Assembly (NCBI RefSeq): GCF_013426205.1
Contig: NC_089424.1
Location: 1,240,001 to 1,304,000 of the forward strand
DNA: 64,000 nt
Source: Metarhizium brunneum
Lineage: Eukaryota; Ascomycota; Sordariomycetes; Hypocreales; Clavicipitaceae
Direction of reading: 5' to 3'
Position numbers and translations under genes: made by a program. The notes under the pieces are model-generated. The model made no database searches. It worked only from the letters and a program-made list of their open reading frames with translations, and was not told the origin of the DNA. Positions 22,305 through 49,942 of this stretch are shown here, piece after piece. Positions within the stretch are counted from its first letter, which is position 1, and every line of letters starts with the position of its first letter.

Positions 22305-25300
22305 CTACGACGCCTCTTTGAGTTCTTGAGCTTCATCCGACTCCTCTTCTTCTTCATCGTCCACGCCCTTTCTAAGGGCTGCGGCTTCCCCAACTTCCAT
22401 CTTGTGCAGTTCCAACTTCTGTTGCTGGTTGAGGACATCCATTCCGTCGACTACGTCAAATTCTTCCTCCTCCTCTTCCTCCTCCTCCTCTGTATCGCCG
22501 CCGGCGCTGCCTGGCGACCGGTCAAGTGGCGGTCGCTCTGGAGTCCCGTTCACGGGGGGATGGGGGCTCGAGGGTCGAGACCTCGGGAGTAGACTGTCTC
22601 GCAGCGGTTTAATAGTAGGGTCAAAGGCGGCAGGCAACCCCAGGGCCTTTGCGACTTGGTGCGCCTCTTCGTCTGGGGAGGCCTGTGGCTCGAGTTCATA
22701 GGTGCTGCTCGTTTCGCTATCGGCTTCGTGGAGACCATGGCTAGCGGCCAGCATTCCCAGGTATGTCTGGCGAGTTGTGTCGTTGGCACGCTTGACCTTC
22801 TTTTTTATGCGCTTCTCTGTCGGCCGAACAACAACAACAGGAACGGGTGAGTATTGCAGGCAGTACTTGGAGAAGGAATTGCGGGCATTGACCAGTCCTT
22901 GGATGCCACCAAGGGAGCGACCTTTAGTGCCAACAATGAGCATGGCAGGCTGGTACATCTGGATCTGCAAGGGGACAGCGGTCAGTGTCTCATCTCTCTC
23001 TCTCACATGCACACACGCACGAATGCAATGCCTGTCGGTAGGCCCAAGGGTGTACGAACCAGCTTTTGGAAGGTCGCATGCAACTTTCCCACGGCATACT
23101 CGAGCACAAAACTAATGGCATGGTTGGAAGCGTTCTTGGCCAGAATGTTCTGCATAACGGTTGCAGCGTCCTCTTGGTATTGCTTATCATTGTAGCGGAT
23201 TTCCTTCTCAATGACCCGGACACAAACAATTTCGTCGCCGTCATCGACCAGCTCATCTAGCAGCCACTGAATGGCATAGTCAGAATATGAGTGCTCGTCG
23301 ACGCCAACCATGAAGCTGCGCGATCTGCGTCGAGCCTGATATCCCTTGTGCCGAACGTTGAGGGTCAACGAGAGGGTGTTGTTCTTGGTAGCCTCGCCGC
23401 TGGGGACATTGTCGAAACCAACGTGGTGCTGAAACCTATCGTTTTTCGTCTCGGTTAGCGTCGCCATTGTGCGAATCGGTTACAGCCTTGGAGCCGCAGA
23501 GTTCGGCAAACATGTAATTGAGGAAGCGATTGAAGAGAGCAAGAATGGCAAAGGTGCGACAGGTCAGGAAGATGCAAAGAAAGAGGAGTAACAGCGCCGG
23601 GATGTGAGGCTCAGACTTGGGCAGTGAGCATGTGGGTAGACAAGACTGGAACAGACGACATTCGAAACTATGACTCCACCACTGTCGTGGCGGCCAGAGT
23701 AGCCTCGAGCTAGTCTCGACATGTAGCCGGAGCCGGGTTGGGCTGCGGCCAGCCATGAAAGAGCCTGCCTGGCACCAGACACTGGGAAGGATCCTGCCTG
23801 GTCCAGTGACCGATGTGTGCTACCCTCACTGTAGGTGCTGCGCCGCTGCCTTGTCCAAGAGGGTCCAACCCCGCGGCGTCTCTGTGTGTGCATGTCTTCA
23901 TGGTGCATGTGGCGATACGGAGCAATGCCTCGTGCGCCATGCCTGGCTTGGTCGTGACGGCCAGACGGCTCAGCAAGGCTATTGCTGGTTGATAGCGGGG
24001 TAGGCTAGAGGCACTGGGCGGATGTGGACGGAGTGGGCAATGGCCAGAGTTGCAATAGAGGGCTGGCTTCAGACACAGCCTGGTCCAGGTGGATCCATCG
24101 CTGCCCCCAAACGACGCTCGCGGCCAGCCCGGGCGCAGGCGAGAGTCTGCCATGTGCAGTCCTCACTCGTAGCAACAAGCGCGGGTCGCTTTGGTATGCG
24201 GATGCGGCCAAGACGTTTGGGAATGCGGCCAGGCACACTGGATGATGGATGAGCTGCCAGCCTGCCTGTCCCTGTGCATACGTGCAGCATGCTGAGCAAC
24301 GTCGCTGTCGCTGCCATCGACCGCACTGCCAGCCCGCAGCCATGTACTGTCCAGTTTGGTACGAAGCAGGCGGGAGGCCTAGCCAGACCCATCCGGATGG
24401 CCGACATGATGGTGCGTCCAGCCAGCCAGATCTCAATGACCAGATCTAAGGTATTCGTTTGGCTTGCGGGATCCGCCGCTATGCTTCAATGCTAACCCAG
24501 CAGCTTGGAGCGGTTCCACTCCACCGTTCATCGCCATGTGGGCCATGGTCGACGTAGAGACAGCTTCACAAGCCCCGAGTTCGACTCTTGTTGGATCCAG
24601 GCAGTCAAGCGGTGGTTGCGGCAAAGACGGCATTGCACCCAGCGCATCCGCCATGTTGACTCCGGGTAGAGATGCCGAGTTGGTGTGCACAGCATGAGAG
24701 CTGACCATGGAGCAAGACGCAGCGCAGGGGTCAACTTTGGGGTATAAAAGCCAACGACCCCGTTTTGGCATGACGGAGACCGGCTGTGTTGGTCACCTTA
24801 CAACCTGACACTGGACAAACACGGTCTCGTGCTCTGGTTTTTTGGCATGCCAGTGTGCACGCGGGCAGCAGACAATGGGTGAAAAGGGTAGATGACATGT
24901 GTGGGATTTGGACAGGGAGATGTCAGGACTCTTACCGTTGAGGCGGCGGAGACGCATTTCGAATGCGCAAGCCATGAGCAGTTTGCTTAGAAGTGCTCGG
25001 TGCGACGGACGGGTTCCTCGAGCGTCGAAATGAAATGGACGACACAGACGATTTCCGCCCAAAGGAGCTCTCGGAAAGCGCATCGGTGGGGGTTCGATCT
25101 GAAGGCGAGTGATCGGGCTTCGGCAACTCGTCCGGGAACGATATGGAGGCTTTCCTCACGTCAGCTGAAAAATCATCTTCACTGGACCCTTGCTTGATGT
25201 CGAGTTTAGACGGCGGAGGAAAGTAGGAAGCCGAAGCATCAAGCGCGGCGTTGAATTTCGCATCGACAGACTTGGTCATGTCCGTCTTGGTGTTGATCTT

Positions 25301-44656: not shown

Positions 44657-44730
44657 CTCCCCCGGAAAGGCTCGAACTTTCAACCTCCTGATTAACAGTC
44701 AGACGCGCTAGCCAATTGCGCCACGGAGGA
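44657..44730 (-). tRNA. tRNA-Asn (GUU), copy A
   Basis: 74 nt. Acceptor stem TCCTCCG pairs with CGGGGGA, with discriminator G. D arm GCGC/GCGC. Anticodon loop CTGTTAA (anticodon GTT) sits on stem TCTGA/TCAGG. T arm GAAAG/CTTTC has loop TTCGAGC. It is identical to copy D and lies in the opposite direction to the other three. A six-T terminator follows on its strand (44651-44646). Confidence 0.95.
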
Positions 44731-45597
44731 CGACCGATTGTTGTGAAAAGACGTCGCTAATTAATTACATGAGGGTCGTACAGAAACAGCCCCGCTTTTT
44801 TACGCCTCTTGATAAAGTCGGTCAGATGCCTTTACAATAAAGTGTGTCCGTCTAAAAATTATATAGGCCCTTTTACAAGCCGTTATAGAAACGACGGAAA
44901 GAAGAGTCTAATATACTACGTGTACAAGGTAAGCCTTGAGGGTAGGACAGCGAAGTCGGTCGCTTCGTTTGCATGAATCCCACCAGACGGTGTTACGCAA
45001 ACCAGTGAATTCCTCCGTTCTTCGTCTAAAATGAAATGCCCCTGTCTTCGACACCATCGTGCTTTATTACGCTCTACGAAGAGACACATAACATGCTTCC
45101 AGTACCATAATTCGGCATTTTGGCAGTGTTGCCAAGACAAAGGTTAGTTACCACTGCTGAAAAATACCATCACCGATTAGTGGCCTACCCTGTACCACGT
45201 CTATCCTCAAACGCCTGGTGATTGACCAATTGCCAGCTACGGTGCGTCATGTATGCAGCAGGAAGAGTCTGGATCAAAGAGTTTGGCTCGAATAGGTAGA
45301 ACCCTTTCAAGTTTAGAGTGTGGTGAACCCCATACAATTTCGCGGAAAAAATGATGCGAATTTTGTCATTGCCAATATCCATATACGGTACGTCTACAAC
45401 CTGGCTGCAGATTGAATCACAACAAGGGGGAGTGAAGTTATTCGCAAAATTTCTCAGACATGTAATAGCTTTGCACAGTAAACTTTGCCGCGCCATGCGG
45501 TCACTTATCTCCTTCCACTACGTTGGCCATTGGTCATGACAGTGACTTCTTTCCAGCTAATTGACTAGAGTCAATAAGCTGCCTGCTTACTAACAAT
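44731..45597. other. Interval between inverted tRNA-Asn copies
   Basis: 867 bp of AT-rich sequence. A 103-codon minus-strand frame (45185-45496) is unrecognised. Nothing else is supported. Confidence 0.4.
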
Positions 45598-45671
45598 TCC
45601 TCCGTGGCGCAATTGGCTAGCGCGTCTGACTGTTAATCAGGAGGTTGAAAGTTCAAGCCTTTCCGGGGGAG
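45598..45671 (+). tRNA. tRNA-Asn (GUU), copy B
   Basis: 74 nt, identical to copies A and D except one base in the T loop (TTCAAGC instead of TTCGAGC, position 57). Seven-T terminator at 45675-45681. First of three direct copies spaced about 150 bp. Confidence 0.95.
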
Positions 45672-45748
45672 AAATTTTTTTGCTTTTTGTGGCTATATAT
45701 CTCAGCCGCGCTCTTAAATTACGATAAGATTCCGGGGCCGCCAACCTT

Positions 45749-45882
45749 TCCTCCGTGGCGCAATTGGCTAGCGCGTCTGACTGTTAATCAGGAGGTGAGT
45801 TAGAGAACCGATAACTTGTGATATGTGGAAATATTTGCTAATAGATTATAAAAGGTTGAAAGTTCGAGCCTTTCCGGGGGAG
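45749..45882 (+). tRNA. tRNA-Asn (GUU), copy C, interrupted by a 60-nt intron-like insert
   Basis: Both parts match copies A and D exactly: 45749-45794 (46 nt, ending CAGGAG) and 45855-45882 (28 nt, starting GTTGAAAG). The 60 nt between them (45795-45854) interrupt the variable loop between tRNA positions 45 and 46, whereas nuclear tRNA introns of fungi sit after position 37. Internal promoter boxes and a ten-T terminator (45887-45896) are intact. It may give a non-functional transcript, or a functional one if the insert can be removed. Confidence 0.9.
45795..45854 (+). other. Spliceosomal-intron-like insert within tRNA-Asn copy C
   Basis: 60 nt beginning GTGAGT and ending AAAAG, with branch-like GCTAAT (45837-45842) whose branch A is 13 nt from the end. 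The host sequence reads AG|GT at the junction, a proto-splice site. Because AG and GT occur at both ends, the insert is also bounded by a 4-bp AGGT direct repeat, as a target-site duplication would be. Size is typical for introns of this genome. No BHB (bulge-helix-bulge) or tRNA-endonuclease context is expected at this site. Confidence 0.75.
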
Positions 45883-45956
45883 ATTCTTTTTTTTTTGGCC
45901 GTAACTAAATCGCAGTCGCGGTCTTAGGGTACGATAAGAGTCCGGTTGGCAACAGC

Positions 45957-46030
45957 TCCTCCGTGGCGCAATTGGCTAGCGCGTCTGACTGTTAATCAGG
46001 AGGTTGAAAGTTCGAGCCTTTCCGGGGGAG
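45957..46030 (+). tRNA. tRNA-Asn (GUU), copy D
   Basis: 74 nt, identical to copy A, uninterrupted. T-run terminator at 46042-46046. The spacer before it is related to the spacer between B and C (shared ACGATAAGA and GTC/CTTA blocks), so the unit of about 150 bp was tandemly duplicated. Confidence 0.95.
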
Positions 46031-48355: not shown

Positions 48356-49942
48356 ATGCCTCTCCTCGGCGGCAAGGGCAACAAGTTCAAGGTTGACCCG
48401 CCCAAGATCCGGATCGAAAAGGTTATTGTCGAACGTGCCCCGACCCCGAGCAAACCAAAGCCGAAATCTCGCCCCGGCCCGGCCTCCGCGGGAGCCTCGT
48501 CATCGCGCTCGTCTCCCGTTTACCGTCCGTCGCCTAAGCCTTCGGCTGTCCGCTACGCCAGTCATTCGCCTAATCCTTCATCATCTGACGAAAAGCGACT
48601 TGATCGGAAGCGCAAGACGGGCACTGTCTCCTCCACGACACGGTCCCCCGCGAGCGAGCGTATAACGTTTGACAAGGATAGCGACGCCGAGGATGATGGC
48701 TGGATGAATTTGGATACCCGCAAGAGGCAGCGAAGAGGCAATTCCGAGGATAAGCACCTGGATTCCAACCGCAAGCTTAGACACTTCCGGGCTTTTGAGG
48801 GACGCAACGACAATCTGAAATTTGTCCACGCCGTTGAGGTCGCTTCGCTGGAAGAGAAATGCGTGCCTGTCATGGGTGCGCAAAAGGAGGATGTTGCCAT
48901 AGAGTTGCAGTATCCCAGTTTGCAGCCTAGAGAGAAGTGCGTCTCCGATACTCCTCCGTCTTTTCAGCCATGCCCATCGCCCGCCAGAGTTATATGACTG
49001 ACGAATTTTTCTAGGTTTGAGCTTGTCTGGGGCAAGGATAAAATAGACGCGGTTGAGGCTAGTATAAGAATCGTTCGCCATGTCGCCGAAACATATCTCA
49101 CCGAAGATGAAGCTGAACCGTTCACTAACCACAATACGGGTCTTATTCGACGTTTGGAAAAGGCGTCAAATCGGAACATTCAAGACCTGGCTGGTTTCAA
49201 AGCTGCAATCCACGAATACAATGAGACTTTACTAGGAATGGTCGAGGATGGAATCATTGCAAAAAACCTTGATAAGATGCACGAACTACCACGACAATTT
49301 GTGGCTTTTATTCTGGATCAAGTCTATGATCGAACGGTTGCTCCCAAAGTCGAACTGCTGTCAAAGTACGAAAATGGCACCGATTATGTCTATGGAGAAC
49401 TTCTGCACCCTTTCATATCAAAGCTTCTAGTTGAACAGACCAAGATGACGTCGGATCAAGTCTTTGTGGATTTGGGATCCGGGGTTGGGAATGTCTGCTT
49501 ACAAGCTGCATTGGAAATCGGATGTGAAAGCTGGGGTTGCGAAATGATGGAAAACGCCTGCAATCTGGCCGATGCCCAGATCAAAGAGTTCGAGGCCAGA
49601 TGTATGCTGTGGGGAATCAAGCCTGGCAAGTCTCACCTCGAGAGAGGCGACTTTCGCAAGAACACCGCCATACACGAGGCCCTGAAACGAGCCGATGTCG
49701 TTCTCGTCAACAACAAAGCCTTTACATCTCAGCTGAACGATGACTTGGTGCGCATGTTCTTGGATTTGAAATTAGGCTGCAAGATCATTTCGCTCAGGTC
49801 CTTCGTGGCTGACTTCAAGAGTAGCCACAACATCAATGACGTTGGTAGCACCATTCTTGATGTGGAAGAGTGTTTATACCCAGAGGGCTTTGTCAGTTGG
49901 ACCAATGCTGGTGGATCATATTTCATCTCCACACGCAAGTAG
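48356..49942 (+). CDS. DOT1: DOT1 histone H3-K79 methyltransferase
   Basis: Two exons: 48356-48936 and 49015-49942 (1509 nt, 502 residues), joined in phase 2 with donor GTGCGT and acceptor TAG, a TGAC site shortly upstream of the acceptor. The first 190 residues are basic, Ser/Pro-rich and disordered, including RKRQRRG, in keeping with nucleosome/DNA binding. The catalytic DOT1 fold follows: the D1-type motif [12 protein letters not shown] (about 312-323), SAM motif [10 protein letters not shown] (346-354), the acidic E of GCEMMENAC, and VLVNNKAF near residue 421. It ends with SLRSF and a tail typical of fungal DOT1. It methylates H3 lysine 79 in the nucleus and acts in silencing and DNA damage checkpoints. 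Confidence 0.94.

Follow-up and report, generated by a model that had tools for sequence, protein, structure and literature searches.

The question that this locus raises is whether a nuclear tRNA gene, transcribed by RNA polymerase III, can harbor an intron of spliceosomal form. In the 64,000-nt stretch of DNA analysed here (the window), which belongs to the insect-killing fungus Metarhizium brunneum, four copies of tRNA-Asn(GTT), designated A to D, lie within 1.4 kb (44657-46030). Copies A and D are identical at 74/74 nt and copy B differs from them only by a G to A change at gene position 58; copy C, less its 60 nt, equals copy D exactly, and sister copies A, B and D all lack the 60-nt insert. 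A sequence-only reading of the locus had claimed that copy C equals A and D apart from 60 nt lying in its variable loop, that the insert starts with GTGAGT, has GCTAAT 13 nt before its end and ends in AG, and that excision leaves a perfect 74-nt tRNA at an AG|GT site bounded by AGGT direct repeats; the first statement holds letter for letter, the second holds in the register 45795-45854, and the third was borne out as well (Table 1). The insertion is real, precise and intron-shaped. The Rfam tRNA model fitted copy C end to end at 47.8 bits (vs. 62.5-62.6 bits for A, B and D), placing the insert in the variable loop, presumably between conventional tRNA bases 45 and 46 in our own numbering. ARAGORN in the setting first applied reports three of the four tRNA-Asn copies and, with introns of up to 150 nt allowed, calls copy C a tRNA-Ser with a 55-nt intron, a misnaming by which automatic annotation can hide this copy. 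The same 1.4-kb cluster holds every tRNA-Asn(GTT) gene found genome-wide (37.8 Mb), three intact and one interrupted, as counted by a DNA search plus a 29-nt pattern in which 3 mismatches were allowed, a procedure that may miss more divergent copies.

Table 1. Coordinates of the tRNA-Asn(GTT) copies, their spacers and the parts of copy C, in window positions.
Feature	Positions	Strand	Basis or remark
tRNA-Asn copy A, intact	44657-44730	-	ARAGORN, Rfam tRNA model, sequence comparison
tRNA-Asn copy B, intact, one change at gene position 58	45598-45671	+	ARAGORN, Rfam, sequence comparison
Spacer B-C	45672-45748	+	51/73 aligned bases identical to spacer C-D
tRNA-Asn copy C, interrupted	45749-45882	+	sequence comparison, Rfam tRNA model
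5' exon of copy C, gene positions 1-46	45749-45794	+	identical to A and D; Rfam tRNA match
AGGT direct repeat, left copy	45793-45796	+	5 equivalent excision registers
60-nt insert read as GT-AG intron, variable loop	45795-45854	+	sole GT-AG register of 5
Donor-like GTGAGT	45795-45800	+	sequence; agrees with the fungal U3 donor GTRWGT
Branch-site-like GCTAAT, branch A 45841	45837-45842	+	fits RCTRAY; 13 nt from last base
Acceptor-like AG, in the form AAG where YAG is typical	45853-45854	+	sequence
AGGT direct repeat, right copy	45853-45856	+	sequence comparison
3' exon of copy C	45855-45882	+	identical to A and D
Box B-like GTTCGAGCC in 3' exon	45862-45870	+	sequence
Spacer C-D	45883-45956	+	51/73 aligned bases identical to spacer B-C
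T10 run, probable polymerase III terminator of copy C	45887-45896	+	sequence
tRNA-Asn copy D, intact	45957-46030	+	ARAGORN, Rfam, sequence comparison

Because the 4-nt AGGT is repeated at the ends of the insert, the 60-nt excision can be drawn in five equivalent registers, of which that in Table 1 is the only one with GT-AG ends; AGGT is present once in the 74-nt tRNA-Asn, and the insert sits there. Beyond the branch A, the nearest AG (45843) starts at a distance of 2 nt, which is too close for acceptor use, and the terminal AG comes next, being the first usable AG past the branch site. According to passages of a study of fungal U3 genes (PMC5832005), the donor GTRWGT is found in 88/136 canonical donors of U3 introns, the fungal branch site is RCTRAY at 6-36 nt from the acceptor, RCTRAC is found in 129/138 U3 introns, and the acceptor is YAG in every fungal U3 intron but one. 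The donor of the insert conforms to this fungal U2-type pattern and GCTAAT conforms to the branch site in both letters and distance, in its rarer, T-ended form; the insert departs from the YAG acceptor in ending with AAG. YAG is typical rather than absolute, with AAG ending 2/17 GTNNGT predicted introns of M. brunneum. Our intron reference comprised 50 introns predicted ab initio in 262 kb of the M. brunneum genome with CTRAY required, several of which are probably false, and its size depended on the threshold (4 candidates under strict settings, 626 unfiltered, 50 in the set used). Two overlapping subsets (n = 17 each) were defined, one by GTNNGT and coding-score filters, with 10 CAG, 5 TAG and 2 AAG acceptors (15/17 YAG), and the other by GTNNGT and CAG/TAG, with 9 CTAAC, 7 CTGAC, 1 CTGAT and no CTAAT branch sites (16/17 CTRAC), lengths of 54-110 nt and a GC content of 43-61%. 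Compared with the 17 predicted introns of the latter subset, the insert lies inside the length range, while its GC content of 30% is well below theirs. We consider the sequence-only interpretation partly supported: the intron-like anatomy holds, yet the insert is less intron-like than first claimed, as judged by its AAG end, its T-ended branch site and its low GC.

Since the AGGT repeat itself supplies GT and AG, only letters beyond these count as evidence. We framed a null rule (GTRWGT, RCTRAY 6-36 nt from the end, and the terminal AG being the first AG that starts at least 4 nt past the branch A) and an alternative rule (the three commonest donors plus CTRAY), both after the insert had been seen and with chance figures uncorrected for the number of features surveyed; among genomic 56-mers, which overlap one another and contain real introns, the null rule held in 49/173,910 (0.028%), or in 7/14,636 with GC below 40% (0.048%), vs. 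391/200,000 dinucleotide shuffles (0.2%), and the alternative rule held in 0.035% of 74,550 genomic 56-mers and 0/6,317 with GC below 40%, vs. 0.22% of 200,000 shuffles. As the tRNA has only one AGGT, the insertion site would be a further coincidence under random insertion. These figures bear on the main rival of a spliceable intron, a plain insertion, to which we assign somewhat less than an even chance, whereby break-repair filler or the remnant of a small element recently disrupted a spare tRNA-Asn, the splice-like words are due to chance, and copy C makes no tRNA. This explanation draws on the repeat, which gives GT and AG automatically, on an A+T-rich, AAG-ended insert with a T-ended branch site, unlike most predicted introns, on searches that found neither another copy of the insert nor its source, and on the three intact tRNA-Asn copies that remain, with which loss of one copy is tolerable. 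Its difficulties are at the same time points in favor of a spliceable intron: 1) given the repeat, donor and clean branch site occur together, at a fitting distance, in just 0.03-0.2% of null inserts; 2) the insert falls at the only AGGT of the tRNA; 3) the exons and the T run are undamaged. A spliceable intron is further favored by the exact restoration of the tRNA in the GT-AG register and by the precedent of fungal U6 and U3, and is opposed by the AAG acceptor, the T-ended branch site, the GC of 30%, splice sites that are mostly paired in the fold, and the U6 and 5S genes seen here, which are without such an intron.

A 4-nt direct repeat flanking unique filler is the pattern left by staggered break repair, and our leading explanation, at just under an even chance, is that copy C recently gained a short splice-competent intron via break repair with filler. 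We postulate a staggered break at the only AGGT of tRNA-Asn, in whose repair some 56 nt of unrelated DNA were joined in as filler; the duplicated AGGT would provide a donor in the context AG|GT and an acceptor in the context AG|G, and the filler would by chance have carried GAGT after the GT side and GCTAAT near its end. RNA polymerase III would then transcribe copy C, with its intact internal boxes, up to the T10 terminator, and the spliceosome would remove 45795-45854, as in fungal U6 pre-snRNA, the product being a normal tRNA-Asn. While splicing of copy C is plausible from its letters, the complete proposal, i.e., a nuclear tRNA gene with a functional newborn spliceosomal intron, whose RNA polymerase III precursor would pass through the spliceosome to give normal tRNA-Asn and whose AGGT scar is still readable against three intronless sisters, is one we advance tentatively, as possible rather than probable.

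The sequence-only reading had also considered a decayed tRNA copy. The exons of copy C show 0/74 changes vs. A and D. Spacers B-C and C-D probably arose together with the tRNA copies and differ at 22/73 aligned bases; at this divergence, an unconstrained 74-mer should have collected about 14 changes per branch. Copy C was thus kept, or converted, until recently, which would fit an insert tolerated by splicing as well as one that is simply young. Decay is not supported for the exons, although a recent disruption may have taken place. Gene conversion or a young insertion may be the source of the exon identity. As copy C contains no TTTT, polymerase III should not stop inside it, and the run of ten T, whose role as terminator we assume from general knowledge, comes after the gene; the 3' exon harbors GTTCGAGCC, which we take to be box B-like. 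Folded without constraint, the RNA of copy C (-32.9 kcal/mol, vs. -27.5 kcal/mol under an enforced cloverleaf) has its splice sites mostly paired and its cloverleaf broken; overall, the folding of copy C is no better than that of shuffles (z -0.44). Within the two spacers, a 16-nt word, TACGATAAGA(T/G)TCCGG, lies upstream of copies C (45720-45735) and D (45930-45945) and may be an upstream element or a case of chance conservation, these spacers sharing 51/73 bases.

The suggestion of an introner-like mobile intron calls for near-identical introns elsewhere, and none was found genome-wide: with the insert plus 2 nt as query and E up to 10, the 37.77-Mb, 7-contig genome yielded no second copy in a DNA search that skips very common words and for which the whole gene was also used as query. 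Three insert pieces of 21-24 nt with up to 3 mismatches gave 1, 4 and 0 matches besides the insert (2, 0 and 0 for reversed-pattern controls), two of the four matches of the second piece being one palindromic place, and at those 5 loci the whole insert aligned no better than shuffled inserts, 227-453/500 of which reach the score. An introner origin is not supported because no second copy was found; we rejected an introner or transposed intron, for which many near-identical copies are required and one was found, and for reverse splicing, which had likewise been suggested, no source intron was identified. A mobile intron, whether introner-like or reverse-spliced from another gene, that entered the tRNA and was copied back into DNA strikes us as improbable, since these searches weigh against it. 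In its favor, the insert is a complete intron in form and sits at an AG|GT site, and introner-like elements are reported in some fungi (PMC4457414), in a text that does not name Hypocreales, Sordariomycetes or Metarhizium. A nearby non-intron duplication, another source raised by the sequence-only reading, was rejected in a scan of 3.7 kb upstream and 3.1 kb downstream, where the best local alignment scored 26, equalled by 241/300 shuffles; viral contigs, scanned for the exact junction, yielded 0 matches. An assembly error, conceivable with four near-identical 74-nt copies within 1.4 kb, is hardly credible given that the 60 nt are found nowhere else as a source of misplacement and that the assembly of M. 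brunneum ARSEF 4556, according to passages of its description (PMC7842015), was built from Nanopore long reads with four rounds of Illumina polishing.

To judge how unusual the position of the insert is, we turn to the other tRNA genes of this genome. The tRNA model gave at least 63 matches, 62 of them over the cut-off, with 63/982 candidates scored; copy C appeared in this genome-wide scan only as a 60-nt match of 23.5 bits. Our tRNA set covers about half of the 124 tRNA genes given for M. brunneum in the published passages (PMC7842015), and a table of another paper gives 149 (PMC11457142). Among 59 other tRNA genes, 24 of 72-73 nt by Rfam match are without insert, and the remaining 35, aligned with Rfam, comprise 31 with anticodon-loop inserts and 4 with only a class II long variable arm; an insert outside the anticodon loop was found in none of the 59. 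The earlier remark that the insert is unusual for a tRNA is well founded, since all 31 extra inserts elsewhere lie in the anticodon loop. Insert positions were taken from Rfam alignments and not from ARAGORN, which presumably restricts its intron search to the anticodon loop and whose intron positions were for that reason not taken as proof. These data speak against an unusual tRNA intron that the tRNA splicing endonuclease would cut out from a non-canonical position: the body of the host tRNA gene is otherwise intact, but the insert occupies the variable loop and not the place after the anticodon that is usual in fungi, and an archaeal-type bulge-helix-bulge was seen in 0/5 registers (best central helix 3/4 pairs, outer helices incomplete), making this explanation very unlikely in our view. 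ARAGORN, with introns of up to 150 nt, also called a tRNA-Ala with an 85-nt intron at 22419-22594, which is probably spurious because Rfam finds no tRNA there.

For other polymerase III genes, we found at least 27 matches to 5S rRNA (47/1806 candidates scored), 23 of which are over the cut-off and 119-123 nt long, and at least 2 to U6 (47/2078 candidates scored), one full-length at 104 nt and one weak, with a score of 20.2 bits that lies below the cut-off; no insert was present among the 5S and U6 matches listed. Four weak 5S rRNA matches of 29.5-36.6 bits, below the gathering score (C6:2056418-2056536, C1:9060531-9060646, C7:2539664-2539779 and C7:1026232-1026344), may be 5S pseudogenes or remnants. 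Among the protein genes of the window, we noticed a DOT1 histone methyltransferase domain (Pfam PF08123) at 49238-49939, in a gene whose start at or before 48356 is suggested by a predicted intron at 48910-49014 (region 48356-49939), and one protein that shares 98% identity with Ria1 from a Metarhizium cluster.

A review of 2026 treats tRNA splicing as independent of the spliceosome (PMC13149111), and according to a 2017 paper no small structured RNAs other than U3 and U6 are known to carry an intron often (PMC5832005); titles and abstract openings, from a literature largely without subscription papers, named no spliceosomal intron in a nuclear tRNA. If copy C is a spliced tRNA, the spliceosome would accept a wider range of RNAs, and the birth of an intron would be visible in a gene without reading frame, next to copies that preserve the earlier state, rendering the origin of introns directly testable. 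If it is unspliced, copy C would neatly illustrate how easily an intron is mimicked by a 4-nt AGGT repeat.

Tani and Ohshima in 1989 and Canzler in 2016 are said to have described spliceosomal introns in fungal U6 snRNA genes; U6 is an RNA polymerase III transcript, and its fungal introns are spliceosomal. Like these, the copy C insert resides in the gene of a small structured RNA of RNA polymerase III; unlike these, its host is a tRNA, it is present in one copy of four, it has an AAG acceptor, and its splicing is putative. With the introns of fungal U3 snoRNA genes, as portrayed in the U3 passages, it shares a GTRWGT donor and an RCTRAY branch site as well as the coexistence of intron-bearing and intronless copies in one genome, whereas U3 introns occupy few shared positions, end nearly all in YAG and average 92 nt, compared to a single, AAG-ended insert of 60 nt (PMC5832005). 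For new introns of Daphnia, 33 repeats at the ends, 4-12 bp in length, were reported and ascribed to staggered breaks (PMC4202315); the AGGT of copy C is a short end repeat of this double-strand-break-repair type (4 bp vs. 4-12 bp), but the Daphnia neointrons interrupt protein genes and were studied by comparing populations, and the copy C insert is in a tRNA gene. Duplication of AGGT as a provider of ready-made splice sites is a route described in passages of another study (PMC3443670). As with canonical nuclear tRNA introns, removal of the copy C insert restores the tRNA; in contrast to those introns, which lie in the anticodon loop and are cut by the endonuclease, this insert lies in the variable loop and harbors the signals of a spliceosomal intron.
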